A DNA stretch of 64,000 nt, taken from an uncultured Bacteroidota bacterium (GTDB taxonomy: Bacteria; Bacteroidota; Bacteroidia; AKYH767-A; 2013-40CM-41-45). Below the pieces are notes generated by a model that ran no database searches, was not told the DNA's origin, and was given only the letters and a program-made list of their open reading frames with translations. Within the stretch, counting starts at the first letter, position 1. Every line of letters begins with the position of its first letter. The position numbers were made by a program, and so were the translations under genes. Shown in pieces: positions 2,722 through 50,865 of this stretch. The stretch covers positions 92,574 through 156,573 of the forward strand of contig CALMQM010000103.1 of the NCBI GenBank assembly GCA_937871435.1, written 5' to 3'.

Positions 2722-3169
2722 GTTGCTTCTTACCCATCACATCCTCCGCCAACTGCGCGAAGTCTGATGATTCATCCTTCATCATTCTTTCGTATTCGGC
2801 CTGCGACCAGATTTCAATCCGGTTCCCATATGCAAAGAGCACAATGTCTTTTTCAATACCGGCAAAATCAGCGAGTGTCTTTGGCAACAACAAACGGTTG
2901 GTTGCATCGAGCTCTATCTCTGTTGCTCCCCGGTTGAACTTCCTGATGAACTCACGATTCTTCCGCACGTACAGGTTCAACTCATTCACTTCTTCACTGA
3001 TCTTCTCCCACACCTTCTTGGTATAAATAATCAGGTGCTTTTCAATTCCGCGATGCACAACGAAATGCTTTTGCTCTTTCGCCGGGATTTGCTTCTTCAA
3101 AGCAACCGGCAACAGAAAACGCCCTTTCGCATCAATCGTACATGGAAACTCTCCGATATACCCCGCCAT
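2699..3169 (-). CDS. mraZ: Transcriptional regulator / cell-division protein MraZ
   Basis: DNA-binding AbrB/SpoVT-fold protein that usually represses its own dcw operon. The two internal repeats each carry the MraZ signature: DAKGRFLLP near the N-terminus and DATNRLLLP in the second half. I place the start at the ATG at 3169 (MAGYIGEF), giving 156 residues, close to the family norm. An upstream in-frame GTG at 3232 would add 21 residues, but that stretch is the operator repeat, so it is rejected. mraZ is first in the mraZ-rsmH-ftsL-ftsI operon. Confidence 0.95.
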   Translation of the reverse strand: MAGYIGEFPCTIDAKGRFLLPVALKKQIPAKEQKHFVVHRGIEKHLIIYTKKVWEKISEEVNELNLYVRKNREFIRKFNRGATEIELDATNRLLLPKTLADFAGIEKDIVLFAYGNRIEIWSQAEYERMMKDESSDFAQLAEDVMGKKQRDDDDVS

Positions 3170-3206
3170 CGCTGAATTTTTGGATGCGCTAATGTAGAAA
3201 ATAAAT

Positions 3207-3234
3207 TCCCACTTTCTACCACTTTCTACCACTT
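3207..3234 (-). promoter_or_regulatory. MraZ operator: three GTGG repeats at 10-base spacing
   Basis: Read on the minus strand, GTGG occurs three times with a spacing of exactly 10 bases (plus-strand CCAC at 3209-3212, 3219-3222 and 3229-3232), twice as the full unit GTGGTAGAAA. It lies 38-65 bases upstream of the mraZ ATG. Helically phased TGG/GTGG repeats in front of mraZ are the known MraZ recognition pattern, so autoregulation is inferred. Confidence 0.75.
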
Positions 3235-3545
3235 TGTTGAAAACTTTCTGAACCCCGCTACTGGCAAGGCTTTCAGAGGGTGCGAAGGAGTCATTTCCAA
3301 AAAAATTGGACCGTAAAATGGCCTACAACCAGGAAATTTTTACCTGCCGTGGGAGTTTGTGGAAGTGCCGGAAAGAGGTGAAAAGCCTCACATCAACAGC
3401 TATTTAGATGAAGATGGATGCAACATTTTTTGTTTTCTGAGATTCTTCTTTGAAGATGATCAGAGAAACTGACATCTGCGAGTCGAACATTCATCCGGAA
3501 CTTCACATTTTTCTTTTTTTCTCTACATTTGGAAAAACAATTCTT
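3233..3545. other. Divergent intergenic region, mraZ / hydrolase
   Basis: About 310 bases without a convincing gene. It holds the outer edge of the MraZ operator, a second pair of GTGG words 10 bases apart on the plus strand (3349-3362), and a TAnnTTTG box (3524-3531) for the rightward gene. An open frame on the plus strand begins upstream at 3450 but looks like leader sequence rather than protein. Confidence 0.5.
3524..3531 (+). promoter_or_regulatory. Bacteroidota -7 box TACATTTG
   Basis: Matches TAnnTTTG exactly and ends 14 bases before the hydrolase ATG at 3546, implying a leader of about 10 bases. No clear TTG was seen at -33. Confidence 0.45.
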
Positions 3546-4319
3546 ATGCGTTACGAAATCAAACGCGAAAACAATTTCCAATACATCGAAGAAGGAAATG
3601 GCCCGCCATTAATCCTCCTCCATGGATTGTTCGGCGCACTCAGCAATTGGAAAGATGTCGTAGAGAAATTTTCGAAAGAGTATACAGTGGTTATCCCACT
3701 TATGCCCATCTACACTCTTCCCGTATTGAACACCAACGTGAAGGCTCTTGCTGATTTTGTCCACGATTTCATTTCCTGGAAACAATACAAAAACCCAATC
3801 CTCATTGGCAATTCTCTGGGAGGACATGTGACACTCGTCTATGTAAAGAAACATCCGGATACCATTTCTGCCATGGTACTTACCGGTAGCTCCGGCTTGT
3901 ATGAAAATGCAATGGGCGGAACTTTTCCAAAGAGAGAGGATTACAATTTCATTAAATCAAAAGTTGAATATACTTTCTACGATCCCAATACTGCTACCAA
4001 AGAACTGGTGGATGAAGTGTTTGGCATTGTGAACGACAAAGGAAAACTGATCCGGATTCTGAGTCTTGCAAAATCCGCGATTCGCCACAATATGAGCGAA
4101 GACCTGAAGGATATGACCATGCCTGTATGTCTGATTTGGGGTAAACAGGATACCATCACACCACCGGATGTCGCGGAAGAATTTCACCGCTTACTTCCGA
4201 AAAGTGATTTATTCTGGATCGATCAATGCGGCCACGCTCCCATGATGGAACAAGCTGAACAATTCAACACTATCCTTCATGCCTGGCTGAAAAAATTACC
4301 TCCGGCAAAGAATTCCTGA
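3546..4319 (+). CDS. Alpha/beta-fold hydrolase
   Basis: Soluble serine hydrolase of 257 residues with no signal peptide. The catalytic triad is readable: Ser90 in the nucleophile elbow GNSLGG, Asp212 in WGKQDTITPP, and His240 in DQCGHAPMMEQ. The oxyanion-hole loop is LLHGLFGALSNW. The lid pattern is like that of meta-cleavage-product hydrolases and related esterases, but the substrate cannot be predicted. The start is the ATG at 3546, just after the -7 box; an in-frame ATG at 3450 would add 32 unlikely residues. ysxC follows after 29 bases in the same direction and is probably co-transcribed. Confidence 0.9.
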   Translation: MRYEIKRENNFQYIEEGNGPPLILLHGLFGALSNWKDVVEKFSKEYTVVIPLMPIYTLPVLNTNVKALADFVHDFISWKQYKNPILIGNSLGGHVTLVYVKKHPDTISAMVLTGSSGLYENAMGGTFPKREDYNFIKSKVEYTFYDPNTATKELVDEVFGIVNDKGKLIRILSLAKSAIRHNMSEDLKDMTMPVCLIWGKQDTITPPDVAEEFHRLLPKSDLFWIDQCGHAPMMEQAEQFNTILHAWLKKLPPAKNS

Positions 4320-4348
4320 TCTTTTCTCCCATTTCTCAGACCATCCCG

Positions 4349-4957
4349 ATGACTATTCGTGAAGCACGTTTTATTGCCAGTCAGACTACCTACACAAAAT
4401 GTCCGGAACCTGTGCTTCCTGAATATGCTTTCATTGGGAGATCCAATGTTGGAAAATCCTCATTGATTAACATGCTCGTCGGACGAAAAGGTCTGGCCAA
4501 AACATCTGGTACACCGGGGAAGACACAACTTATCAATCATTTTATTATTAATGAAAGCTGGTATCTGGTAGACTTGCCCGGATATGGATTTGCGCGTGTC
4601 GCGAAATCAGCGAAGGCCACATGGGATACCATGATTCGCGAATACCTGAATAAACGCAGCAACCTGATGACGGTTTTTATTCTGGTAGACATCCGGCTGG
4701 AACCGCAAAAAATTGATCTCGCGTTTATCCAATGGGTAGGAGAAAATAATATTCCTCTCGCTATTGTCTTTACCAAGGCGGATAAATTGTCCAAGCAACA
4801 GATTATGTATTCTGTTGAAGGATATAAAAAGGAATTAAAAAAAACCTGGGAAGAATTGCCGCTTCTTTTTATCACTTCTTCAGAAAAAAAAGAAGGCCGC
4901 GAAGAATTGCTTGATTACCTTGAAGCAACGAATTCGGTTTTTGTTAAACCTTCCTGA
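4349..4957 (+). CDS. ysxC: Ribosome biogenesis GTP-binding protein YsxC/EngB
   Basis: Essential GTPase of the TrmE-Era-EngA-YihA group, needed for late 50S assembly. The 202 residues show the G-motifs in order: G1 GRSNVGKSS (about 29-37), G2 region KTSGTPGKTQ, G3 DLPGYGFA, G4 TKADKLSK and G5 TSSEKKEG. The length is typical. It is 29 bases downstream of the hydrolase gene and converges on gldC, whose stop lies 23 bases away. Confidence 0.97.
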   Translation: MTIREARFIASQTTYTKCPEPVLPEYAFIGRSNVGKSSLINMLVGRKGLAKTSGTPGKTQLINHFIINESWYLVDLPGYGFARVAKSAKATWDTMIREYLNKRSNLMTVFILVDIRLEPQKIDLAFIQWVGENNIPLAIVFTKADKLSKQQIMYSVEGYKKELKKTWEELPLLFITSSEKKEGREELLDYLEATNSVFVKPS

Positions 4958-4980
4958 TTCGCCATTTCATTCCTCACAAT

Positions 4981-5316
4981 TTATTTCCCCGCGGATTTAG
5001 CAATCTTTTTTCCAAATGAATCAGCGAACTGCCTGATTTCAGCTGCCAGTTCCGCATCATTGGTAGAGCGCAGATAAGTATCTGCCATCGTTGCAAAATT
5101 TTCGTAAAAGAATCTTTTCATATCATCAACCAACATATCCTTCGTCCACAAATCAATACGCAACGTTGTATTATCCTTCGGATCCCAGATAGAAACCATG
5201 GTCGCTTTCGCCGGCTTCCTGCCTTCCACTCCGCTGTCAGAAGCCTCCCATTCCAATCGAGCCGGAATTTTGTCTTCATCCAGGGTTACAATAAATCTTA
5301 TCTCTGATGTTTTCAT
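4981..5316 (-). CDS. gldC: Gliding motility protein GldC
   Basis: Small cytoplasmic protein of 111 residues. The N-terminus MKTSEIRFIVTLDEDKIPARLEW and the internal TLRIDLWTKDMLVDDMKRFF match the GldC family of Bacteroidota. GldC supports gliding in Flavobacterium, but its biochemical role is not known. It follows gldB by 31 bases, the conserved gldB-gldC pair. It is often kept in non-gliding Bacteroidota, so it does not prove motility here. Confidence 0.9.
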   Translation of the reverse strand: MKTSEIRFIVTLDEDKIPARLEWEASDSGVEGRKPAKATMVSIWDPKDNTTLRIDLWTKDMLVDDMKRFFYENFATMADTYLRSTNDAELAAEIRQFADSFGKKIAKSAGK

Positions 5317-5347
5317 AATTCGTTGTACGTTTTAATCAGACAAAATT

Positions 5348-6388
5348 TTATTTTGCCGGTTTGTATTTAGATTCCTGAAAAATTTTCTGCAAATCTTTTT
5401 CTTCCATCAATTGCGACAATGAAATATCCGGATGATTCTCTGCATATGAGCGGATGATATTCCAGCCAATAAACTGTCCGATATTTCCCGGAGATTCCTT
5501 TGGAAAACCATTTGTAGTAGGTCCGTCATTTACATACTTCATCAGCAAATTCGGATCAGTAGTAAATAACAACTGTTGATCTACAAAGAATGACCATATT
5601 TTGGATTCATTTTCCCTGCACCAGGATAGTTGTGCAGAAGAGTATCCTATTTTCAGTGTGTCCGGTGCATCCGGAAATAGTTTTGATAAGGCATAAATAA
5701 TCCTGCCCTGAGAAATCATAGACTCAAGCATCTTGTATTGTCCGTCATCAGAAAGAAAATCACTCTGCAACCATCCTCTCAACGCATCGATCACCACATA
5801 TTCCTTTGTCATTTTGTTACGCAAATATTGAGGCAATGGAGGTTCAATGGTTGAGTAATATCTGTATGACGGACCGAGATACATATCCAATCCGATTCCA
5901 AGATGAGTAGAGTCTGCAACCACCGGATAAGAAAAACCCGAAAGCATTGTTACAATTTGCGGAACTGTCCTTGAAGGAAAATAATAGTGGTAATATTTAA
6001 ATGCTTCTGTCAACTGCTGTTTCGTTAATTCGTCGCTTCCAAATTCTTTTTCCATGTCCCTGTATACAGCCAATAAGTTGGTATCAGACACAAACTGCCT
6101 GAATCGATTCTGCATTAAGACTGAATCAGGGGAACCAAGACTTGTGATTTGAAAAGTGAACAAATCAAAAAAATCTCCATACTTCTCCTTGAGCTGAGTA
6201 AGGGAAGATCCCATGCGGCTTGTATCACATGCGAACAAATCCTTTTCAAACCTGCGAAAATCAAGTTTGACATCCACAGCGGATACATCCGGCTTCTGTG
6301 AGTTGTTTGTGCATGAAGTAATCAACAAACAATTGTATATAAAGGCAAAAAGGATAAGCGATCGAAACCGGTTATTTTTCATTAACAT
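5348..6388 (-). CDS. gldB: Gliding motility lipoprotein GldB
   Basis: Lipoprotein of 346 residues. The signal peptide ends in the lipobox LITSC with the lipidated Cys26, and the mature part opens with a KLDFRRFEKDLF block typical of GldB. The body resembles GldB throughout (for example the GIGLDMYLGPSY segment). GldB is required for gliding in F. johnsoniae; its mechanism is unknown. It diverges from a barrel gene at 6459 and stands before gldC. The ATG at 6382, two codons in, is an alternative start. Confidence 0.9.
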   Translation of the reverse strand: MLMKNNRFRSLILFAFIYNCLLITSCTNNSQKPDVSAVDVKLDFRRFEKDLFACDTSRMGSSLTQLKEKYGDFFDLFTFQITSLGSPDSVLMQNRFRQFVSDTNLLAVYRDMEKEFGSDELTKQQLTEAFKYYHYYFPSRTVPQIVTMLSGFSYPVVADSTHLGIGLDMYLGPSYRYYSTIEPPLPQYLRNKMTKEYVVIDALRGWLQSDFLSDDGQYKMLESMISQGRIIYALSKLFPDAPDTLKIGYSSAQLSWCRENESKIWSFFVDQQLLFTTDPNLLMKYVNDGPTTNGFPKESPGNIGQFIGWNIIRSYAENHPDISLSQLMEEKDLQKIFQESKYKPAK

Positions 6389-6458
6389 TGCATCTGGTTC
6401 GGGGTCAAAAATACCGAATTGACAGGCTCAGAATCACATTCACAAAAAAATTCTACAT

Positions 6459-7142
6459 ATGAGAAAAATTATTTTCCTCAGCTTAATGCTGATCAGCTCA
6501 TTCCCGATGCTGGCACAGGACGAAACAAATTTTCATTTTGGTCTGAAAGCCGCGCCATCCTTTGCCTGGCTTAGAACAGATTCAAAAGTTGCTTCTGCAG
6601 ATGGTTCCAAATTCGGCTTTAGCTACGGTTTAATGACTGAGTTCAATTTCACTAAACGTTACGCATTTGCCACCGGTATCGATGTCACTTACCGGGGTGG
6701 AAAACTGAAAAGTATTTATACAGTTCCAAATTCTTTAGGAACTGATTCCATTACCACTATTGAACAGGCAATTACACTTCAATACATCGAAATTCCGCTG
6801 ACTTTAAAACTCAAAACTAACGAGATCGGATACCTGACTTATTTTCTTCAGGTTGGAGTAGCACCGGGAATCAATATTCGTTCGCGTGCCGACAATAAAT
6901 TTACATCACAAAGTAATGGAAATACCGTAGCCTCTTCCGAAGACAAAGTTGACATCAAAGATGACATCAACTCATTTAACCTGTCCATGATCATCGGAGG
7001 TGGTGTAGAATATACACTGAGCGGTTCCACTACTTTATTACTCGGAGTGCAGTTTAACAATGGATTTCTGGACGTTGAAGACAGTAACGACCTGAAAGTA
7101 AACAGCAACTACCTGGCTCTTACCGTAGGAATATTATTCTAA
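6459..7142 (+). CDS. Outer-membrane beta-barrel protein (porin-like, PorT-type family)
   Basis: 227 residues with a signal peptide (cleavage after about residue 19, MLAQ). The rest is beta-rich: FHFGLKAAPSFAW, FGFSYGLMTEF, YIEIPLTLKLK and a C-terminal LALTVGILF with terminal Phe, the usual outer-membrane barrel ending. An eight-strand barrel of the outer-membrane beta-barrel family common in Bacteroidota fits. Resemblance to PorT is at fold level only, and I do not claim a T9SS role. An intrinsic terminator follows 20 bases after the stop. Confidence 0.8.
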   Translation: MRKIIFLSLMLISSFPMLAQDETNFHFGLKAAPSFAWLRTDSKVASADGSKFGFSYGLMTEFNFTKRYAFATGIDVTYRGGKLKSIYTVPNSLGTDSITTIEQAITLQYIEIPLTLKLKTNEIGYLTYFLQVGVAPGINIRSRADNKFTSQSNGNTVASSEDKVDIKDDINSFNLSMIIGGGVEYTLSGSTTLLLGVQFNNGFLDVEDSNDLKVNSNYLALTVGILF

Positions 7143-7153
7143 ATAAGGTTTAT

Positions 7154-7161
7154 TACCTTTG
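7154..7161 (+). promoter_or_regulatory. -7 box TACCTTTG in front of nadE
   Basis: An exact TAnnTTTG match that abuts the terminator hairpin starting at 7162. Transcription would begin near 7166, inside the hairpin, leaving a leader of about 30 bases before the nadE ATG at 7197. No obvious TTG at -33. Confidence 0.45.
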
Positions 7162-7196
7162 TCCCGGCCGATGAAGATTCGGTCGGGATTTTTTTT
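7162..7196 (+). terminator. Intrinsic terminator ending at the nadE start codon
   Basis: Ten-base stem (7162-7171 with 7179-7188, one G-T pair), seven-base loop, then eight T's to 7196. It ends the barrel gene. The nadE ATG starts at the very next base. Confidence 0.85.
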
Positions 7197-8852
7197 ATGC
7201 GAATTGCACTTGCACAGCTGAATTTTACCATCGGTGATTTTACGGAGAATGTCCGCAAAATGAAGGCCTCCATAGAGCAGGCCAAACAACAATCAGCCGA
7301 CCTCATCGTTTTTCCTGAACTGGCCATCTGCGCATACCCTCCTCGCGACTTTCTCGAATTCGAAGACTTTATCAGCAAAGCCAATCAAAGTACACTTGAA
7401 CTAGCCGCATCTTGTATTGGGATCACAGCCATCGTTGGTGCGCCAAGTGTAAATCCAAAGAAAGAAGGAAAAAATCTCTTTAACACCGCTTACGTATTGC
7501 GTGACGGAAAAATTATTGACGCGGTTCATAAAGCCTTACTTCCAAACTACGACATCTTTGACGAGTACAGATACTTTGAACCCAATCGTCAGTTTCATTG
7601 TGTAGAAATAAACGGAACGAAAATCGCTCTGACCATTTGCGAAGATTTGTGGAACGCAGATGATGATCCGATGTACACTCATTCACCGATGGACGATTTG
7701 ATTCGGGAACAACCACAGTTAATGATCAACATTGCCGCTTCGCCGTTTGATTATGGCCATGCGGAAAGCAGAAAAAATATTTTACTGAGAAATGTCCGTA
7801 AATATTCTTTGCCTCTTGTCTATGTAAATCATACCGGTGCACAAACGGAAATAATTTTTGATGGTGGTTCAGTCGCATTTGACTCCCAAGGTAATACAAC
7901 GTATGAACTGAATTATTTCCAGGAAGATTTTCAGGTAATAGATGTAGATCCTGCATCCGGGAATGCTACTGCTCTTACGCCATCAAATCCTTCCCAAAAA
8001 ATATCTCTTTCAAAAACTGAGCGCATCTACCATGCACTGGTAACAGGCATCGGAGACTATTTCCGGAAACAAGGATTTACGAAAGCCATTCTGGGATTAT
8101 CAGGAGGAATAGATTCGGCATTGGTGACCGTGCTTGCTACACGTGCTTTGGGACCTGAAAATGTAAAAGTACTGCTCTTGCCTTCTGAATTTTCTTCGGC
8201 TGGTTCAGTAGAGGATTCACTTCAATTGGTGAAGAACATCGGTGTACAACATGAAATTATTCCCATTGCTCCTTTATTCAAACAATATCTTGAAACTCTG
8301 AAACCTCACTTTGATAATCTGCCTTTCAATGTAGCCGAAGAAAATATTCAGGCTCGGATCCGTGGAGTATTACTGATGGCTATGTCAAACAAATTCGGAT
8401 ATATTCTGCTGAACACCTCTAACAAAAGTGAAGTAGCTGTCGGATACGGAACATTGTACGGAGATATGTGCGGCGGTTTGTCGGTAATTGGCGACGTATA
8501 CAAAACTGAAGTCTACGACATATGTAGATTCATTAACACAGAAAAAGAAATAATCCCTGAAGTAATTATCAACAAAGCACCTTCTGCTGAATTAAGACCC
8601 AACCAGAAGGATTCGGATTCTTTGCCCGACTATGCTGTTTTAGACGCTGTTCTTTATCAATATATAGAACAGCGAAAAGGACCAGCCGAACTGATTGCAA
8701 TGGGATATGACGAAGCATTGATCAGACGCGTAATGAAGCTGGTTAACACCAACGAATACAAACGTTACCAAACCCCTCCTATTCTTCGTGTCTCACCAAA
8801 AGCCTTCGGAATGGGTCGAAGATTGCCCATTGTTGGAAAATACCTGTCTTAA
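7197..8852 (+). CDS. nadE: Glutamine-dependent NAD+ synthetase
   Basis: Last step of NAD synthesis: amidation of deamido-NAD using ammonia released from glutamine. The N-terminal nitrilase-fold glutaminase domain (about 1-250) has the triad Glu41 (FPELAICAYPPRD), Lys112 (VHKALLPNYD) and Cys148 (LTICEDLW). The C-terminal synthetase domain has the ATP pyrophosphatase loop LSGGIDSALV (about residue 300), plus NTSNKSEVAVGYGTLYGDMCGG. The 551 residues are typical of the compact two-domain form. The start MRIALAQLNF is the family norm, so the start codon touching the upstream terminator is real. nadE close to gldBC is conserved in other Bacteroidota. Confidence 0.97.
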   Translation: MRIALAQLNFTIGDFTENVRKMKASIEQAKQQSADLIVFPELAICAYPPRDFLEFEDFISKANQSTLELAASCIGITAIVGAPSVNPKKEGKNLFNTAYVLRDGKIIDAVHKALLPNYDIFDEYRYFEPNRQFHCVEINGTKIALTICEDLWNADDDPMYTHSPMDDLIREQPQLMINIAASPFDYGHAESRKNILLRNVRKYSLPLVYVNHTGAQTEIIFDGGSVAFDSQGNTTYELNYFQEDFQVIDVDPASGNATALTPSNPSQKISLSKTERIYHALVTGIGDYFRKQGFTKAILGLSGGIDSALVTVLATRALGPENVKVLLLPSEFSSAGSVEDSLQLVKNIGVQHEIIPIAPLFKQYLETLKPHFDNLPFNVAEENIQARIRGVLLMAMSNKFGYILLNTSNKSEVAVGYGTLYGDMCGGLSVIGDVYKTEVYDICRFINTEKEIIPEVIINKAPSAELRPNQKDSDSLPDYAVLDAVLYQYIEQRKGPAELIAMGYDEALIRRVMKLVNTNEYKRYQTPPILRVSPKAFGMGRRLPIVGKYLS

Positions 8853-41889: not shown

Positions 41890-42726
41890 TTAATCAAGAA
41901 TCACAATTCTTGAAATTTCGCTTCTGCTTTCTCCTGTTTCATAAAACAAAAAATACAATCCGGCTTTCAGTCCTTCGCGGTTGATGTTGACGGAAGAAAG
42001 TCCTGAACTACCGACTTCTTTTACACAACGACCCAATTGATCTGTAAAGACCAGTTTCCCGATTTTACCTGAATACAAATCCGGAATTGCAATGGATGCA
42101 CTGGAAGTAAATGGATTTGGGCTACAGTTTAAAGAAGTTGATTTTTGCGGACCATTGCTTATTCCAACCGGATCCAAACTGATCAGAATATTGTCTGCTG
42201 AATATGTACTCCATGCGGCTCCGATGGTTTTATATTTCAACGCGATGAAGGCGCTGTCAGCAACAAAAGGAACAGTAATTATTGTATCCAGCCATTGGAA
42301 CTGGGGTTGCATATAAGACAATGAACCGATCACTGTAAAGTTTCCAAGGAGTGGGTCCTGATTCGTTGAACTAAATAACACCTCAAAATTATCCGGAAAG
42401 GGAGTACTAAAACCGCTTGTATTTACTTTCAGAGCTACCGTTCCTGTGGAAGAGAAATTCATGGCAGGTGAAACAAACCAATCGACAACAGTATCTGTTG
42501 ATGCACCGCCAACGTTGTAATCATGACTAACACATTGACCGGAAAAACCTCCGCCTGAATATCCCCAACTGTATTGGCTTAGGACACCAGTACGGTAAAT
42601 ATTCCATCCGGCTTTTTCAGCCGGAGAATCGAATCCTGTAGCGTAAGGAAGTGTGAGACCCTGGGATTTTACCGAAGTAATAAGAATGAACTGAATACAT
42701 AAAAGCGGGAGTAATTTTTTTTTCAT
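41890..42726 (-). CDS. T9SS cargo with a choice-of-anchor J-type domain
   Basis: 278-residue secreted protein. Signal peptide about 1-21 (ending SVKSQ). Residues about 25-185 form a jelly-roll-like beta domain of the choice-of-anchor J / cleaved-adhesin kind (LPYATGFDSPAEKAGWNIY; VVDWFVSPAMNFSSTGTVALKV; ADNILISLDPVG). A T9SS type A sorting domain follows (LNCSPNPFTSSASI ... LKAGLYFLFYETGES). It is short for a T9SS cargo and has no second domain, so it may be a simple surface lectin or adhesin. No catalytic motif is visible. Confidence 0.82.
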   Translation of the reverse strand: MKKKLLPLLCIQFILITSVKSQGLTLPYATGFDSPAEKAGWNIYRTGVLSQYSWGYSGGGFSGQCVSHDYNVGGASTDTVVDWFVSPAMNFSSTGTVALKVNTSGFSTPFPDNFEVLFSSTNQDPLLGNFTVIGSLSYMQPQFQWLDTIITVPFVADSAFIALKYKTIGAAWSTYSADNILISLDPVGISNGPQKSTSLNCSPNPFTSSASIAIPDLYSGKIGKLVFTDQLGRCVKEVGSSGLSSVNINREGLKAGLYFLFYETGESRSEISRIVILD

Positions 42727-43005: not shown

Positions 43006-43869
43006 TTATGCGCCTTTGGTTTCTATCGCAACATTGTCAATCAGCCTGACAGCACCTATTTTGACAGCGGTAAATACTCTCACATCAGGAAACTGATACC
43101 AATCTCCAGCCGGTTGGAGTGACACGGAATCCGCAATGGTGAGATATTCAACTTTCATGAGTTTATTTTTTTCAATCATGGTTTTGGCATTAAGGAGTAT
43201 TTCCTCCACACTGTGATGAGACCAGTTATCCCGGATAAAAAATAATGCTTTGGAAATGCGTGCAGCTTCTGTTCTTTCGGTTGGGCTGAGTAACATGTTT
43301 CTGGAACTCATTGCCAATCCATCGGATTCCCGAATGGTAGGACAAGGAACAATTTCCACGGGCAGATTCAATTGACTGGTCATGGTGCGTATAACAGCAA
43401 GTTGCTGAAAATCCTTTTCACCAAAATACGCGGCATCCGGTTGAACAATCCGGAATAAATTAGCGACTACCTGCATCACACCTTTAAAATGTCCGGGGCG
43501 ATGACTTGCTTCCATCACATGATCCAACACTCCCAATTGGATATCAGGAACAGGAGGCAATTGACCTTCCGGATACATTTCGTTCACAGAAGGTGCAAAA
43601 ACCAGATCGGCACCAACTTGTTCTAATTTTCTGAGATCAGCATCCATTGTGCGTGGATAGTTTTTCAGATCGTCCGGATTATTGAATTGGGTCGGATTAA
43701 CAAAAATGCTGACTACTATCCGGTCAGTTTCCTGCTTCGCTTTTTCCACCAATTTCAGATGACCCTGATGTAAAGCCCCCATTGTAGGTACAAAGCCAAC
43801 CTTTAGACCGGATTTTTTCAATGAAGCAATTTCAGAGCTCAGGAGGCTTTTATTATCAATAACTTGCAT
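43006..43869 (-). CDS. panC: Pantothenate synthetase
   Basis: ATP-dependent condensation of pantoate with beta-alanine, in the CoA pathway. 287 residues. It has the nucleotidyltransferase motif FVPTMGALHQGHLKLVEKA, FVNPTQFNNPDDLKNYPRT, YFGEKDFQQLAVIRTM and SDGLAMSSRNMLLS, all family hallmarks. The start is given as MQVIDN at 43869; an in-frame ATG at 43878 would add three residues. It diverges from the GT5-like gene at 44072. panB and panD are not in the window. Confidence 0.96.
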   Translation of the reverse strand: MQVIDNKSLLSSEIASLKKSGLKVGFVPTMGALHQGHLKLVEKAKQETDRIVVSIFVNPTQFNNPDDLKNYPRTMDADLRKLEQVGADLVFAPSVNEMYPEGQLPPVPDIQLGVLDHVMEASHRPGHFKGVMQVVANLFRIVQPDAAYFGEKDFQQLAVIRTMTSQLNLPVEIVPCPTIRESDGLAMSSRNMLLSPTERTEAARISKALFFIRDNWSHHSVEEILLNAKTMIEKNKLMKVEYLTIADSVSLQPAGDWYQFPDVRVFTAVKIGAVRLIDNVAIETKGA

Positions 43870-44011
43870 TAATACCATAAATATTGTTTATATTATCATT
43901 CTCAAATTTTATTACATCATCCTTTTATGCCTAATTATCAGAACATTAAGCTAATAATGCATTAAAATTTCAATAAAAACTGCAATTTTCCGCTATCAGG
44001 ACTTGCAACTA

Positions 44012-44071: not shown

Positions 44072-44908
44072 ATGAAGAAAGCGAAAGTTTTATTTATTTC
44101 CCAAGAGATCACTCCTTTTCTGGATGTGACAGAAGTATCGAATATCGCCCGGTTTCTTCCTCAGGGCGTTCAGGAAAAAGGGAAAGAAATCAGGACTTTC
44201 ATGCCACGCTTCGGTTTGATCAATGAGCGCAGGAATCAACTGCACGAAGTGATCCGCTTATCCGGCATGAACCTGATTATAGACGATTCAGATCACCCTC
44301 TGATTATCAAAGTTGCCTCGATCCAAAGTGCGCGGATGCAGGTATACTTCATCGACAATGAAGAATATTTCCAGCGCAAGATGGTTTTTCGTGATGCAAA
44401 GAAAAAATTCTACAAAGACAATGAAGACCGCATGGTATTTTTCTGTCGCGGTGTACTTGAGACAGTCAAGAAGCTTGGCTGGGCTCCGGATGTGATTCAT
44501 TGTCATGGTTGGATGACTTCCTTGATTCCTTTCTTTGTAAAGACCGGGTATAAAGACGAACCGATGTTCAAGAACTCCCGTGTTGTTTATTCCAGCTATT
44601 TGCAGGATATGGAAGAAACTTTCAGTCCGAACTTTACAAAGAAGCTAAAGATGGATGGAGTTTCAACTGATGACATGAAGCTCTACAAAGATCCCACGAT
44701 GGCAAATATTCACATTGCAGCCATGAAGCTGAGTGATGGTGTGATCAAAGGTTGCGATACTAAGAATGCGACTGTAGAATCTTATCTTAAAAAATCCAAT
44801 AAACCGGTATTAGAATATAAACCCTTTGACGACGAAGGAGCATTTGTGAACGCCTGCTCTGATTTTTATGATGAATTGCTGGAACAGGAACCCGTTCTCC
44901 AAGACTAA
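44072..44908 (+). CDS. Degenerate glycogen-synthase-like N-domain protein (GT5 N-terminal domain only)
   Basis: 278 residues resembling only the N-terminal Rossmann half of GT5 glycogen/starch synthases (VLFISQEITPFLDV ... FMPRFGLINERR ... VDVIHCHGW-like APDVIHCHGWMTSLIP). The ADP-glucose-binding KxGG motif expected after the ExxP stretch is replaced by FLDVTEVSN, and the HNL-type block by VVYSSYLQD. The C-terminal glycosyltransferase half is absent. It is therefore probably not a polymerising enzyme. Related short proteins occur next to panC in other Bacteroidota. The next gene starts 1 base after its stop. Confidence 0.82.
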   Translation: MKKAKVLFISQEITPFLDVTEVSNIARFLPQGVQEKGKEIRTFMPRFGLINERRNQLHEVIRLSGMNLIIDDSDHPLIIKVASIQSARMQVYFIDNEEYFQRKMVFRDAKKKFYKDNEDRMVFFCRGVLETVKKLGWAPDVIHCHGWMTSLIPFFVKTGYKDEPMFKNSRVVYSSYLQDMEETFSPNFTKKLKMDGVSTDDMKLYKDPTMANIHIAAMKLSDGVIKGCDTKNATVESYLKKSNKPVLEYKPFDDEGAFVNACSDFYDELLEQEPVLQD

Positions 44909-44909
44909 T

Positions 44910-46286
44910 ATGAAGATAAATTTTGCGGCAGGCCAGGCCTTCCGAATTTTCCGAAAAACCACCAACAATCCCAAGCAAAATTTCAACACTATTTCCTCCA
45001 CACTTTCGTGGAGGAAATATTTTTTTCTGGTATCTATAATTGCCGGGATCGCTCTGGTTCCTGCATGTAAAGACCCGGAAGAAATAGGACTTGGGATAAT
45101 TCCAGGATCAGATACTCTCGGACTCTCCTTATCTGATACGAGTACTATCTATACTCGTACTGTGCTTGAAGATACATTGCGTACCGATGAATTGTCGGTT
45201 GAATTACTGGGCAGTGTATACGATCCTGTTTTTGGAAAACACCAGGCTGCCATCTATGCTCATACTGTATTAGCCGGCGTACCAAATTTCAACGGAGTCA
45301 CGCATGCCGATTCGCTTGTGCTCACACTATTTTACAGTGGTGCTTACGGAGACACATCCCTTACACAAACTGTGAATGTGTACCGCATGACGGAGGATAT
45401 GGAATTCGACAGCGTGTATTATTCGAATAAAAATTTCAGCTACGATGCGGTACCTCTTGGAACGCAAAATTTCAAAGCCTGGCCAAATCACACCGTAGTT
45501 GTTGGAGGAGATACACAGTCTGCACAGCTTCGTATACCATTGAGTCTGGCTTTAGCAGATTCAATCATGGCATTGTCGGGTGGAACAGAATTATCAACCT
45601 CAGACAATTGGAATGCATATTTTAAAGGACTATACATCAAAACTGATGAAGCCACTGTATCAGGCACAGGATGTATTGCCTATTTCAATTTTCTCACTTC
45701 TAAAATGACCTTGTATTATCACGGAACGGACACTGTGGCAAGAACCTATTCATTCACATTAGCCGGCGCACGTGTAAACTCATTTTCACACGATTACACA
45801 GGGACAGATATAGCTGCACAAATCGCGGATTCAAATGCAGTAGATTCTCTGGCATATTTACAATCGATGGCGGGTGTAAAAACTAAAATTTCATTCCCTT
45901 TTCTGAAACATTTTACTGATTCCGGCAGTATTGTAGTGAATAAAGCCGAGTTGACCATTACTGCTCAGGCAGGTACGCCATTGGATTATCCGGTACCATC
46001 CCGAATTCTGGTTGTGGCCCTTGATTCTGTCGGAGGAACATATTTTCCGATAGATTACTATGAAACCGGAGGATATTTCGGTGGAAGTATCAATGCGGAT
46101 GGAAGAACGTATACCTTTAACCTGACGCGACACATTCAGCGGATCCTGGATGGGCAGGTATCAAATGACGGACTTTATGCAGTGGTATTCGGATCAGCGG
46201 TTCAAGCCAACAGGCTGATCATGGGAAGCGGTAAAAATGCCGACTACCGGATGAAACTGAAATTATATTATACGCATCTCCCTTAA
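44910..46286 (+). CDS. DUF4270 domain lipoprotein
   Basis: 458 residues. The N-terminus is long and basic (about 34 residues) before the hydrophobic signal YFFLVSIIAGIALVPAC with lipobox Cys53, then KDPEEIGLGIIPGSDTLGL, the opening of DUF4270 proteins. The body is beta-rich with repeated DSLVLTLFYSG-type strands. Likely anchored to the outer membrane; function not known. The start is the ATG at 44910, 1 base past the previous stop; another ATG at 44868 lies inside that gene. glmS follows after 70 bases. Confidence 0.85.
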   Translation: MKINFAAGQAFRIFRKTTNNPKQNFNTISSTLSWRKYFFLVSIIAGIALVPACKDPEEIGLGIIPGSDTLGLSLSDTSTIYTRTVLEDTLRTDELSVELLGSVYDPVFGKHQAAIYAHTVLAGVPNFNGVTHADSLVLTLFYSGAYGDTSLTQTVNVYRMTEDMEFDSVYYSNKNFSYDAVPLGTQNFKAWPNHTVVVGGDTQSAQLRIPLSLALADSIMALSGGTELSTSDNWNAYFKGLYIKTDEATVSGTGCIAYFNFLTSKMTLYYHGTDTVARTYSFTLAGARVNSFSHDYTGTDIAAQIADSNAVDSLAYLQSMAGVKTKISFPFLKHFTDSGSIVVNKAELTITAQAGTPLDYPVPSRILVVALDSVGGTYFPIDYYETGGYFGGSINADGRTYTFNLTRHIQRILDGQVSNDGLYAVVFGSAVQANRLIMGSGKNADYRMKLKLYYTHLP

Positions 46287-46356: not shown

Positions 46357-48198
46357 ATGTGTGGAATTGTAGCTTATATCGGAAAAAGGGATGTATACCC
46401 AATCCTGATTAAAGGACTCCAAAGACTCGAATACCGTGGGTATGACAGTGCCGGTATTGCCATTTTGAATGGTGATTTGAAAATTTTTAAGAAAGCCGGT
46501 AAGGTGAGTGACCTTCATGCTTTCGCGAAGGATAAAGATACTTCAGGACATATCGGAATGGGACATACCCGTTGGGCAACACACGGGGAACCAAATGACA
46601 GAAACGCGCATCCGCATTATTCACAAAGTGGAGCTTTTGCAATCATTCACAATGGAATTATCGAGAATTATTCTTCGATCAAAGCTGAGTTAAGCAAGCG
46701 TGGTCATATTTTCAAAAGTGATACGGATACAGAAGTGTTGGTACACCTGATAGAAGATATTTTCGAACATGGGAATGTCACACTTGATGAAGCGGTACGA
46801 CTGGCATTGGGAGAAGTGATCGGAGCATATGCTATCGTTGTTCTCTCCAAAGATCATCCGAATGAACTGATTTGCGCGCGTAAAGGAAGTCCGATTGTAT
46901 TGGGAGTAGGAAAAGAAAAAGGCGAATTCTTTGTCGCTTCAGATGCTACGCCAATCATTGAATATACCAATAATGTAATTTACCTGAATGACGGAGAAGT
47001 AGCGTACATCAACAATGGTACGCTTACGGTAAAGACCATCGAGAATCAGGTGAAGACACCATACATCCACGAACTGGAAATGAAACTCGAACAACTTGAA
47101 AAAGGTGGTTTCGAGCATTTCATGATGAAAGAGATTTATGAACAACCACGTTCCATCTGGGACAGTATGCGAGGTCGTATTGATGCGACCAAAGGATTCC
47201 TGCGTATGGGCGGTGTGGCGGAGTATGAAAACAAATTTTCCAACGCGAAAAGAATTCTCATCATCGGCTGCGGAACTTCATGGCATGCAGGATTGGTAGC
47301 GGAATATCTTATCGAAGATCTTGCGCGCATTCCGGTGGAAGTGGAATATGCTTCGGAATTTCGGTACCGTAATCCGATTATCCACGAAACAGATATTGTA
47401 ATTCCTATTTCACAATCAGGAGAAACAGCGGATACACTTGCGGCAATTGAATTGGCAAAATCAAAAGGTGCTACAATTTTCGGAGTATGTAATGTAGTTG
47501 GCGCATCTATCCCGCGTGCAACACATGCCGGGGCCTACACTCATGCAGGACCGGAAATCGGAGTAGCTTCCACCAAAGCTTTCACGGCGCAGGTGACAGT
47601 ACTCACACTGATCGCTCTACAGATTGCTCATCACCGTGGAACAATTACAGACTCACGTTATCATCAGTTGATGAACGAACTGGAGGCAGTTCCCGCCAAA
47701 GTAGAAAGAGTGTTGAAGACCAACGATCAGATCATGAAACTTGCGGCAAAATTCAAAGACGCACGTAACTTCCTTTATCTGGGACGCGGATATGGATTTC
47801 CTGTAGCTCTGGAAGGCGCGTTGAAACTAAAAGAGATTTCCTATATCCATGCCGAAGGATATCCTGCTGCTGAAATGAAACACGGTCCGATTGCATTGAT
47901 CGATGCCGAAATGCCGGTGGTTGTGATTGCCAATAAAAACGAGACCTACGAAAAGGTTGTCAGCAATATTCAGGAAGTAAAAGCAAGAAAAGGAATCATC
48001 ATTGCCATTGTTACCGAAGGAGACACTGTCGTGAAAGGTCTGGCCGATCACGTCATCGAAATCCCGGAGACTGACGATGTCCTGATGCCTCTTGTTTCAG
48101 TTGTTCCTTTGCAGCTTCTGTCTTATCACATCGCGGTGCTTCGTGGCTGCAATGTGGATCAGCCGCGTAATCTCGCGAAATCCGTGACGGTGGAATAA
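46357..48198 (+). CDS. glmS: Glutamine--fructose-6-phosphate aminotransferase (isomerizing)
   Basis: Makes glucosamine-6-phosphate, the entry to peptidoglycan and LPS amino sugars. 613 residues. The N-terminal Ntn glutaminase domain starts MCGIVAYIGKRD with the nucleophile Cys2 (Cys1 after Met removal), then YRGYDSAG and GHTRWATHGEP. Two SIS domains follow (GCGTSWHAGLVAEY; PISQSGETADTLAA; EGALKLKEISYIHAEGYPAAEMKHGP). The C-terminal DQPRNLAKSVTVE is the standard ending. No glmS ribozyme-like leader was noticed in the 70 bases upstream. Two terminators follow. Confidence 0.98.
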   Translation: MCGIVAYIGKRDVYPILIKGLQRLEYRGYDSAGIAILNGDLKIFKKAGKVSDLHAFAKDKDTSGHIGMGHTRWATHGEPNDRNAHPHYSQSGAFAIIHNGIIENYSSIKAELSKRGHIFKSDTDTEVLVHLIEDIFEHGNVTLDEAVRLALGEVIGAYAIVVLSKDHPNELICARKGSPIVLGVGKEKGEFFVASDATPIIEYTNNVIYLNDGEVAYINNGTLTVKTIENQVKTPYIHELEMKLEQLEKGGFEHFMMKEIYEQPRSIWDSMRGRIDATKGFLRMGGVAEYENKFSNAKRILIIGCGTSWHAGLVAEYLIEDLARIPVEVEYASEFRYRNPIIHETDIVIPISQSGETADTLAAIELAKSKGATIFGVCNVVGASIPRATHAGAYTHAGPEIGVASTKAFTAQVTVLTLIALQIAHHRGTITDSRYHQLMNELEAVPAKVERVLKTNDQIMKLAAKFKDARNFLYLGRGYGFPVALEGALKLKEISYIHAEGYPAAEMKHGPIALIDAEMPVVVIANKNETYEKVVSNIQEVKARKGIIIAIVTEGDTVVKGLADHVIEIPETDDVLMPLVSVVPLQLLSYHIAVLRGCNVDQPRNLAKSVTVE

Positions 48199-48405: not shown

Positions 48406-50865
48406 ATGAAAAAAACACTTTTTAGTCTTCTTGTTTTTTTGAGTTTGTACAAGATCAATTTCGCGCAGACACATTGGGAAAAAATTTATCCGGGTTTACC
48501 GATTAGAAATCCCGGCAATCTTGATATTACACAAATTGATGGAGGCTTTGTTTTTTGTGCAACATCCAATCAAAACCACTTCCTTCTAAAAGGTGATTCT
48601 CTTGGAAATACAGTCTGGTCGAGGAGTTTTGATCACACCGGAACAAATGAATTTACGGCAGCTGTTGCGCATGAAGGCGATTCAGTGATTGCATTTATCG
48701 GTTCGGAATACAATGCATACGAGTGGCAAGCAGTGATCGGCAGATGTGATTTGAATGGCAATATCATTAACTATTTGCCATATCCTGTGTTTGACGGATG
48801 GGGAACTACTGGTATGAATATCCAACCGAATGGATTGGGAGGGTACAATTTTCTTATTTATGAAGACGGATACACGTCAGACAACCATGTTTATCTGAAC
48901 TATTCTCAAATCGTGGGATATGATGGAGAAGATATCGGATTGAACGGGATGTCATCCAATCGTTTTGGCGAAACTTTTATGGCAGTCAACAGTTATTTTC
49001 TAACAACCGAATATCACATCAGGAGCAATACAGGACTCGATTTCCTGTTTCAGAATCAGACTTTACCGGATGCAATCGTAGCGACGAACGATAGTGCATG
49101 CATGTTGATTGCTTCAAACGGAACATTTGAATTAAGAAAAATCAATACAACTGGTGTCATAGACTGGAGCAGAACATACGCGGACAGTTCATTTCTTTTA
49201 TCCGCAAAAGATATCAAACAACGTCCGGACGGTAACTATTATATGCTTTGCACAGAAGGAAATGTCGCAGGACAAACTTGCATTTTCCTGATGGAAACAA
49301 CCGAAAACGGAGACAGTTTGTGGAGCAGGAAATTTTATGGATATGGAAGAGCATCCGCAATTAATTTGCGATTGTATGATGATGGCGACCTGATAATTTT
49401 TGGTGAATCTGACGGAGACCCCTATGTAATCCGAACTGATTCTGCCGGACAAATCAATCCGGTTTATTCAATTAATGGTCCGGGTCATGAATACTGCGCA
49501 GGAGATACCATCACACTTAATATAACACCGGCAGCTTCCTCCTACCATTGGTCAAGCGGAGAAACAACACAAAGTATTCAAGTGACGCAGTCAGGAGGAT
49601 ATACAGCACAGGTTACAGACGGAACAGGTCAGCTTTCAAATACAGGTATGTATGGAGTAGACATGGATCCTATTCCGGTAGCTGATATTGCATCCAGTTC
49701 CAGCATTTCTGTTTGTTCGAATGACACGCTACGGAACAATTCCCTGCAACACCATTCATTGACGAATTTATGGTATAAAGATGGAGTGTTCATTTCAGGT
49801 GATTACTACGTAATTGTTACTCAATCCGGAATGTACAAACTGATTCAAAGTAATAATTGCGGATCGGATACTGACTCGGTGTATGTCAATGTGAATTCAC
49901 TTCCCGCACAACCTTTCATAACGGCTTTACCGGATGAGTATTTTTGTTCCGGTGAAACTGTTACGCTTGTTGCACATGGTGCTGATACAACTTTTCAGTG
50001 GAACTATTCTCTTGATTTAGCTTCACCTGTGGTTCTGTTAAATTCAAGCAATGATTCAATTGATGTAAATCAGGGAGGTATATATTACTCCCGTGATATA
50101 AATTCAAACGGTTGTGTTTCCGTGGCCAATTACATTAATGTTTATGATGTGACAGCATCACCTCAGGTATACACTGTTGGAGATCTTAGTTTCTGTACCG
50201 GTGACTCTGCGGAATTGTTTGGAGGTCTGATGGGCGCAGATGCTCATTATCTCTGGTCAAATGGAGACACTACGTATAATACCATGATTAAACAAACCGG
50301 TTGTTATCATTTTTATGGCATCAACAGATGGGGCTGCTCCGTTAATAGTGATACGGTATGTGTAACAGCCTTTCCACTCCCGGACATCAATCTGGGCAAT
50401 GATACTTTGTTGTGTGTAGGCAATACTATTCAATTTGATGCCGGTCAGGGCTACTCCTATTACATCTGGCAGGATGGAAGTAACGGAGAGTTTTTCACGT
50501 ATACACCGGTGCCGGATGATACTGCAGATTTTTGGGTGTATGTGGTTGATACCAACAATTGTTCATCTTCAGATTCAGTAAGGGTAATTTCTGATTTCTG
50601 TTCCGGTGTAAGTTCTGTCATTCAATCATCTTATGTGTATTTGTATCCTAATCCGAATACCGGTCTGTTGCATTTTTTGAGTAACAACAATGATGAATTT
50701 GAAATGCTATTGTATGATTTCACCGGCAAAGTCATTCTTAAAAAGAAAATTCAGCATTTCAGTCAATGCTTAGACCTGAGTACATTGAATTCAGGAGTGT
50801 ACACGTATCAAATCCGGAAATACGATGGAAGTATTCAAAAAGGTAAGATCACTTTGACGAAATAA
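48406..50865 (+). CDS. T9SS cargo with Ig-like/PKD-type repeats
   Basis: 819-residue secreted protein. Signal peptide about 1-20 (ending INFAQ). Residues about 21-360 look like a beta-propeller-type module with repeats such as LKGDSLGNTVWSRSFDHTG and LFLMETTENGDSLWSRKFYG (delta-60-type repeat pattern). Then come several Ig-like repeats beginning with a cysteine motif (YCAGDTITLNI; FCSGETVTLVAHG; FCTGDSAELFGG; LLCVGNTIQFDAG). A T9SS type A sorting domain ends it (VYLYPNPNTGLLHF ... LNSGVYTYQIRK). No enzyme motif is visible. Confidence 0.85.
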   Translation: MKKTLFSLLVFLSLYKINFAQTHWEKIYPGLPIRNPGNLDITQIDGGFVFCATSNQNHFLLKGDSLGNTVWSRSFDHTGTNEFTAAVAHEGDSVIAFIGSEYNAYEWQAVIGRCDLNGNIINYLPYPVFDGWGTTGMNIQPNGLGGYNFLIYEDGYTSDNHVYLNYSQIVGYDGEDIGLNGMSSNRFGETFMAVNSYFLTTEYHIRSNTGLDFLFQNQTLPDAIVATNDSACMLIASNGTFELRKINTTGVIDWSRTYADSSFLLSAKDIKQRPDGNYYMLCTEGNVAGQTCIFLMETTENGDSLWSRKFYGYGRASAINLRLYDDGDLIIFGESDGDPYVIRTDSAGQINPVYSINGPGHEYCAGDTITLNITPAASSYHWSSGETTQSIQVTQSGGYTAQVTDGTGQLSNTGMYGVDMDPIPVADIASSSSISVCSNDTLRNNSLQHHSLTNLWYKDGVFISGDYYVIVTQSGMYKLIQSNNCGSDTDSVYVNVNSLPAQPFITALPDEYFCSGETVTLVAHGADTTFQWNYSLDLASPVVLLNSSNDSIDVNQGGIYYSRDINSNGCVSVANYINVYDVTASPQVYTVGDLSFCTGDSAELFGGLMGADAHYLWSNGDTTYNTMIKQTGCYHFYGINRWGCSVNSDTVCVTAFPLPDINLGNDTLLCVGNTIQFDAGQGYSYYIWQDGSNGEFFTYTPVPDDTADFWVYVVDTNNCSSSDSVRVISDFCSGVSSVIQSSYVYLYPNPNTGLLHFLSNNNDEFEMLLYDFTGKVILKKKIQHFSQCLDLSTLNSGVYTYQIRKYDGSIQKGKITLTK

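Follow-up and report, generated by a model that had tools for sequence, protein, structure and literature searches.

We propose, with moderate confidence, that GT5-N, a truncated glycogen synthase-like protein, is a phylum-wide non-catalytic pseudoenzyme that would act by binding, was inherited in a bam operon and may serve a basic cellular task that does not depend on the outer membrane. Its gene lies in the 64,000-nucleotide stretch of DNA analysed here (the window; Table 1). The open reading frames and Pfam agree with an earlier note on this DNA in describing an N-terminal GT5 half that ends one base before a DUF4270 lipoprotein gene, and the neighbours named there, divergent panC and downstream glmS, were recovered by their domains. 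The one-base gap between the two reading frames stands because no in-frame usual start codon other than the one at 44910 lies between the end of GT5-N and the codon of the lipobox cysteine (45066-45068); counted from this start, the leader of the window lipoprotein is 53 residues and unusually long. Sigma-70 matches near 44003 are weak, the promoters of the phylum being of a different type. As a separate observation, the region is flanked by secreted proteins, encoded at 41890-42726 (minus strand) and 48406-50865 (plus strand), whose C-termini resemble, by eye, type IX secretion sorting domains.

Table 1. Features of the locus in the window and of the comparison locus L117.
Feature	Coordinates	Strand	Remarks
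panC (pantoate-beta-alanine ligase)	43006..43878	-	PF02569 335 bits; divergent neighbour
GT5-N	44072..44908	+	278 aa; PF08323 164 bits; stop TAA 44906-44908
bamH orthologue (DUF4270 surface lipoprotein)	44910..46286	+	PF14092 186 bits; ATG 44910
Hairpin, possible attenuator	44990..45026	+	12-bp perfect stem then seven T
glmS	46357..48198	+	SIS and GATase domains; downstream neighbour
L117 locus	3110-7435	reverse	intact GT5-gmhB-bamH-bamG-rpiB order

GT5-N retains the fold of glycogen synthase and has lost the parts associated with catalysis. Residues 5 to 225 match positions 1-214 of 239 of the Pfam Glyco_transf_5 model with a score that exceeds the gathering score of 22.7 bits and passes the GT5 superfamily test, and Pfam detects nothing C-terminal to this match. 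The protein fails the cut-offs of the models TIGR02095 (107 versus 328 bits) and PRK14098 (173 versus 754 bits). The absence of the second domain and of the KxGG motif, claimed in the earlier note, is borne out by the Pfam result and by the alignment, in which the KxGG position of the window protein reads D-V-T-E. In aligned columns the glycine pair is lost in 164/164 short GT5 homologues and K-x-G-G/S is kept in nine of the ten full-length forms; a plain K.GG regular expression gives false matches in ten short forms, the aligned columns of which lack the glycine pair. The second histidine of the HxH motif is variable among short forms. Twenty residues are invariant in GT5-N across classes, indicating that the protein is under selection for something, and a neutral relic was considered and rejected, the protein being too conserved. 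The structure prediction suggested in the earlier note gave a confident AF2 model (pLDDT 88.5) with the fold of a starch synthase N-domain, for which the best Foldseek match is starch synthase 4 (6gne, TMq 0.70) and matches 1-17 are all glycogen or starch synthases. Judged from its sequence, GT5-N is very probably inactive as a glycosyltransferase, and the loss of catalytic parts suggests that it works by binding a metabolite or a protein rather than by catalysis. The protein starts, by inspection, without a signal peptide and is predicted to be cytoplasmic.

GT5-N shares homology and the N-domain fold with GlgA of the PRK14098/TIGR02095 type, and is related to GlgA-type full-length proteins occupying the same gene order in other classes. 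It differs from GlgA in lacking the C-domain and KxGG, and in residing in a genome without GlgC, the ADP-glucose pyrophosphorylase, above the cut-off (best 61 versus 425 bits), which has instead a GT3-type glycogen synthase (PF05693), the likely glycogen synthase here. Combined, these three absences make an ADP-glucose enzyme or sensor unlikely, and for the same reasons the sugar-nucleotide binding supposed in the earlier note is doubtful; the ADP-glucose sensor was considered and rejected for lack of a glgC above the cut-off. Plants offer a parallel in STARCH SYNTHASE5 (SS5), a starch synthase-like protein without a GT1 domain that acts in starch granule initiation. Like GT5-N, SS5 consists of a GT5 domain that lacks the catalytic partner half and is kept as a non-enzymatic protein, but organism and setting differ and the likeness is an analogy only, nothing indicating that the two truncations share an origin. 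The bacterial fragment itself has been noticed before: according to the available text of a review, Bacteroidetes use a GT3 glycogen synthase and keep only a GT5 fragment (PMC11046441), which is very probably the same gene. That text devotes one sentence to conservation in Bacteroidetes and says nothing on gene context, function or distribution, nor on a connection with bamH.

We assign the DUF4270 gene of the window to the BamH family on the basis of its profile, single copy, acidic lipobox and the gene order of its relatives, the identity having first come from the NCBIfam family name. Two papers from 2025 place BamH, a surface lipoprotein, in the extracellular canopy or dome of the BAM complex of Bacteroidota (PMC12611786, PMC12578637). 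In the available text of these papers BamH and BamG are reported as core BAM subunits that are essential in F. johnsoniae (PMC12611786), BamH is important in B. thetaiotaomicron and P. gingivalis, and O-glycosylation is reported on BAM subunits (PMC12611786, PMC12578637). Thus, of the pair that the earlier note had called uncharacterised, the description holds for the GT5 half, which is without a described function, but not for the lipoprotein. The window protein passes the Pfam gathering score of 27 bits. It belongs to the same family as the described BamH proteins, but reaches only 86 bits (E 2e-24) against the Flavobacterium-based NCBIfam model BamH_fj, under its cut-off of 420, and is known here from sequence. 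At the same gene-order position, the lipoprotein beside GT5-N in a Flavobacterium-type locus (L067) passes the BamH_fj cut-off with 598, and its match to the solved BamH chain 9n2d_C has E 5e-171. As a single-sequence query the window protein finds no match in the PDB, but a family profile (A2) built from 32 such neighbour lipoproteins finds 9n2d_C, 'Bam H', at E 2.8e-76, and also 9hjm_G. The lipobox cysteine, C53, is invariant in the A2 alignment and is followed in the window by K-D-P-E-E-I, CKDPEE being an acidic surface-export signal. A genome scan found only one DUF4270 gene in the window's genome, which also encodes BamG (403 bits, cut-off 250) and Omp85 proteins.

In the BAM literature, F. 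johnsoniae BamH is Fjoh_0823, inducible depletion systems used the fjoh_0824 promoter, and B. theta BamH is Bt4306. Fjoh_0824 is a candidate GT5-N gene. BT_4307, annotated 'glycogen synthase', is the putative GT5-N orthologue, judged by this annotation and by its number next to Bt4306. Glycogen storage has been argued from BT_4307 in at least one paper (PMC10797578). A cobalamin photo-probe enriched BT_4307 among 16 proteins in both screens (PMC8941943), a lead on the ligand, though of low weight because the list also holds proteins without a known B12 role.

Gene order was scored with local HMMs in 94 loci, 93 from a phylum-wide draw plus the window, comprising 49 loci of class Bacteroidia (window included), 35 short GT5 loci of other classes and 10 full-length GT5 loci. 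This carried out the synteny survey of panC, GT5-N, DUF4270 and glmS that the earlier note had proposed. Recurrence of that order in Bacteroidota, put forward in the note, was observed, the complete arrangement being present in 37/49 class loci. Its parts are not equally conserved, however. BamH lies next downstream on the same strand, in any setting, in 46/49 Bacteroidia loci and in 34/35 short loci of other classes, one of these 34 (L117) having bamH behind a gmhB-like gene, and the pair extends far beyond one family; in contrast, divergent panC (44/49) and downstream glmS (41/49) are features of Bacteroidia and occur in 0/45 loci of other classes. The short loci of other classes read GT5N-bamH-bamG in 33, GT5N-gmhB-bamH-bamG in one and GT5N alone in one, and in Bacteroidia bamG is no longer adjacent to the pair. 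Among the ten full-length loci, a gmhB-like phosphatase was recognised in nine and bamG in six; in three of these six the HMM recognised bamH, and in the others (L123, L124 and L127) an unrecognised lipoprotein of ~400 aa occupies the bamH slot between gmhB and bamG. Full-length GT5-gmhB-bamG, with bamH or a similar lipoprotein in the slot, is thus seen in L122, L123, L124, L126 and L127, and in L120 without a recognised gmhB. BamG calls were confirmed by a curated model and by solved BamG chains. In an independent set of 80 named loci bamH adjoins GT5-N in 71, and a contig end interrupts at least one of the others. In seven of the checked genomes with a broken pair, bamH adjoins bamG at another site. 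What is deeply conserved is the GT5-bamH(-bamG) linkage, which is far older than the link to panC and glmS. Upstream of the full-length GT5 in L118, L119, L121 and L125 we also observed a divergent protein of ~580-615 aa that resembles a lipoprotein and starts with a GGP-DKTPP-like sequence.

In a tree of the N-domain, the short forms from Bacteroidia and from several other classes fall into one clade (support 100/100), adjoining full-length proteins of which several stand in the same gene order; one of the full-length proteins, in L122, passes the GlgA cut-off (615 versus 328 bits). The tree was rooted by choice on the Chlorobia-like L125, in whose family only full-length GT5 forms are listed, and the direction from full-length to short is read from this root and from domain loss being simpler than gain. 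The L125 protein (6160-7623, reverse strand) is itself above the PRK14098 cut-off yet without KxGG. The short GT5 of L117 (288 aa) groups with full-length proteins of the GT5-gmhB-bamH-bamG order, apart from the short-form clade, and constraining it to that clade is marginally rejected (p-AU 0.043). L117 possibly represents a second independent truncation of the same gene.

GT5-N is close to universal in the class. Among 395 class genomes screened, 339 are of good quality, and GT5-N is present in 337 and BamG in 332 of these. The two good genomes without GT5-N (G289 and G319) are both fragmented and have same-genus relatives that carry it, so that the absences are probably assembly gaps. GT5-N is also kept in genomes whose bamH sits elsewhere, and in the class member G226, a single contig of 489,825 bp (0.49 Mb) and 21.8% GC. 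In G226 the gene (L252:16924-17778) is intact, lies between gyrB-like and eno-like genes and keeps 16 of the 20 invariant residues, the conserved first histidine of HxH being lost. Omp85 and BamG are absent in genome-wide searches of G226, and genome scans detected no DUF4270, panC, glmS or lpxA, B, C and D; peptidoglycan genes remain, with murC to murG, mraY, ftsW, ftsI, ddl, ftsA and ftsZ present. G226 resembles a symbiont that retained GT5-N while losing its outer-membrane machinery. Another reduced genome (G447, 1,114 kb) keeps divergent panC beside GT5-N and one Omp85, with BamG absent genome-wide and no DUF4270 in the 819.5 of 1,114 kb scanned (74%). Persistence of GT5-N in G226 without detected BAM, GlmS, PanC or LpxA-D argues that its job is separable from BAM and from amino sugars. 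Independence from BAM has its strongest support in this one reduced genome, with G447 in support, and so reflects few genomes.

The hairpin in the window begins ~80 bases past the GT5-N stop, inside the 5' end of the bamH reading frame, with a fold of -18.4 kcal/mol (z -5.9). Using as criterion a stem of at least 8 bp and a T-rich tail at the GT5-N/bamH junction, hairpins were found in 13/173 loci versus 0.2 expected from shuffles, and in none of four control regions. Several occur in unrelated lineages with unrelated sequences. The junction hairpin may be an attenuator that sets bamH expression below that of GT5-N in some species.

These observations can be arranged into the following mechanism. 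Full-length GlgA-type GT5 proteins head the GT5-gmhB-bamH-bamG order in several other classes. In the branch that includes Bacteroidia along with several more classes, the N-domain is all that is left, still heading bamH(-bamG), and its sequence is strongly constrained even though the donor-phosphate loop and the entire nucleotide-binding C-domain are gone. GT5-N would be a cytoplasmic protein that binds a metabolite or another protein, in a basic cellular role for which the outer membrane is not required. It would remain beside bamH because every growing cell requires both genes and they are transcribed together, the bamH part of the transcript possibly being trimmed by the junction hairpin in some lineages. 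A bolder form of this proposal, which we regard as possible and hold more tentatively, is that a half-glycogen-synthase pseudoenzyme serves most of the phylum as a core cytoplasmic protein, probably an essential one, and was recruited from the enzyme heading the ancestral bamHG operon. Such a protein would still be needed once the outer-membrane machinery is gone, for instance in the growth of the cell wall or in some other basic process, and might bind a nucleotide-like ligand, in line with the capture of BT_4307 by the cobalamin probe.

Long co-inheritance could conversely mean that GT5-N is functionally tied to BAM directly, the reduced genome alone having lost this tie. GT5-N would then head the bamH(G) operon because it assists or regulates BamH from the cytoplasm, acting in its expression, its targeting or its coordination with the glycosylation of BAM subunits. 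Adjacency across several classes and recurrence of the hairpin are consistent with such a factor, as are the glycosylation of BAM subunits and the reported essentiality of BamH and BamG as core subunits in F. johnsoniae (PMC12611786). We nevertheless consider it unlikely, as GT5-N is retained in G226 with Omp85, BamG and BamH undetected and in genomes with bamH elsewhere, and the available text of the two BAM papers does not name it among the co-purifying proteins (PMC12611786, PMC12578637). An ordinary housekeeping role, in which proximity to bamH reflects an old constitutive operon without a functional tie, has a similarly low probability. Unlinked GT5-N copies in several genomes point in this direction, as do panC and glmS, which adjoin GT5-N in one class without an obvious link, but the GT5-N-bamH pair has outlasted turnover of gmhB, bamG, panC and glmS, which is more than a neutral neighbourhood should show.

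The earlier note had favoured a degenerate sugar-nucleotide sensor or adaptor tying amino-sugar supply, through glmS, to the envelope. The frequency of downstream glmS in the class and the fold, that of a GT-B half, agree with it, but the linkage is confined to the class, binding is doubtful with KxGG, the C-domain and GlgC wanting, and GT5-N persists in G226, where no glmS, BAM or lipid A genes were detected; such a sensor is a poor explanation and improbable. That GT5-N is half of an active split glycosyltransferase, for which GT-B enzymes such as Alg13/Alg14 are precedents, is the least probable of all, since the KxGG glycines are lost throughout the short forms, the second histidine of HxH varies, the conserved first histidine is lost in G226, and the separate C-terminal partner envisaged in the earlier note was sought across the window's genome among GT5 C-halves without finding an orphan, the best matches sitting within two full-size glycosyltransferases of 437 and 440 aa.

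The preferred reading, a binding pseudoenzyme with a basic function, thus builds on two known elements, the fragment from one review sentence and BamH, and its main new evidence is that GT5-N outlasts BAM, in few genomes. In the open-licence literature searched, we found neither the link between GT5 and bamH nor the glgA-gmhB-bamH-bamG order described, nor any report that GT5-N outlasts BAM; the word 'glycogen' is absent from the main text of both BAM papers (PMC12611786, PMC12578637), and no entry on essentiality of the GT5-N gene was found in main texts on P. gingivalis or B. theta. Databases label GT5-N 'glycogen synthase', very probably wrongly on the evidence presented here. The protein is nearly universal and strongly constrained in a class of major medical and ecological importance, and heads the gene pair of a recently described BAM subunit that is essential in F. 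johnsoniae. Expression or deletion of bamH at its native locus involves the upstream GT5-N gene and, in some species, the junction hairpin. As GT5-N is kept even in a minimal genome, its function would bear either on BAM biology or on a basic process that nobody has linked to it.
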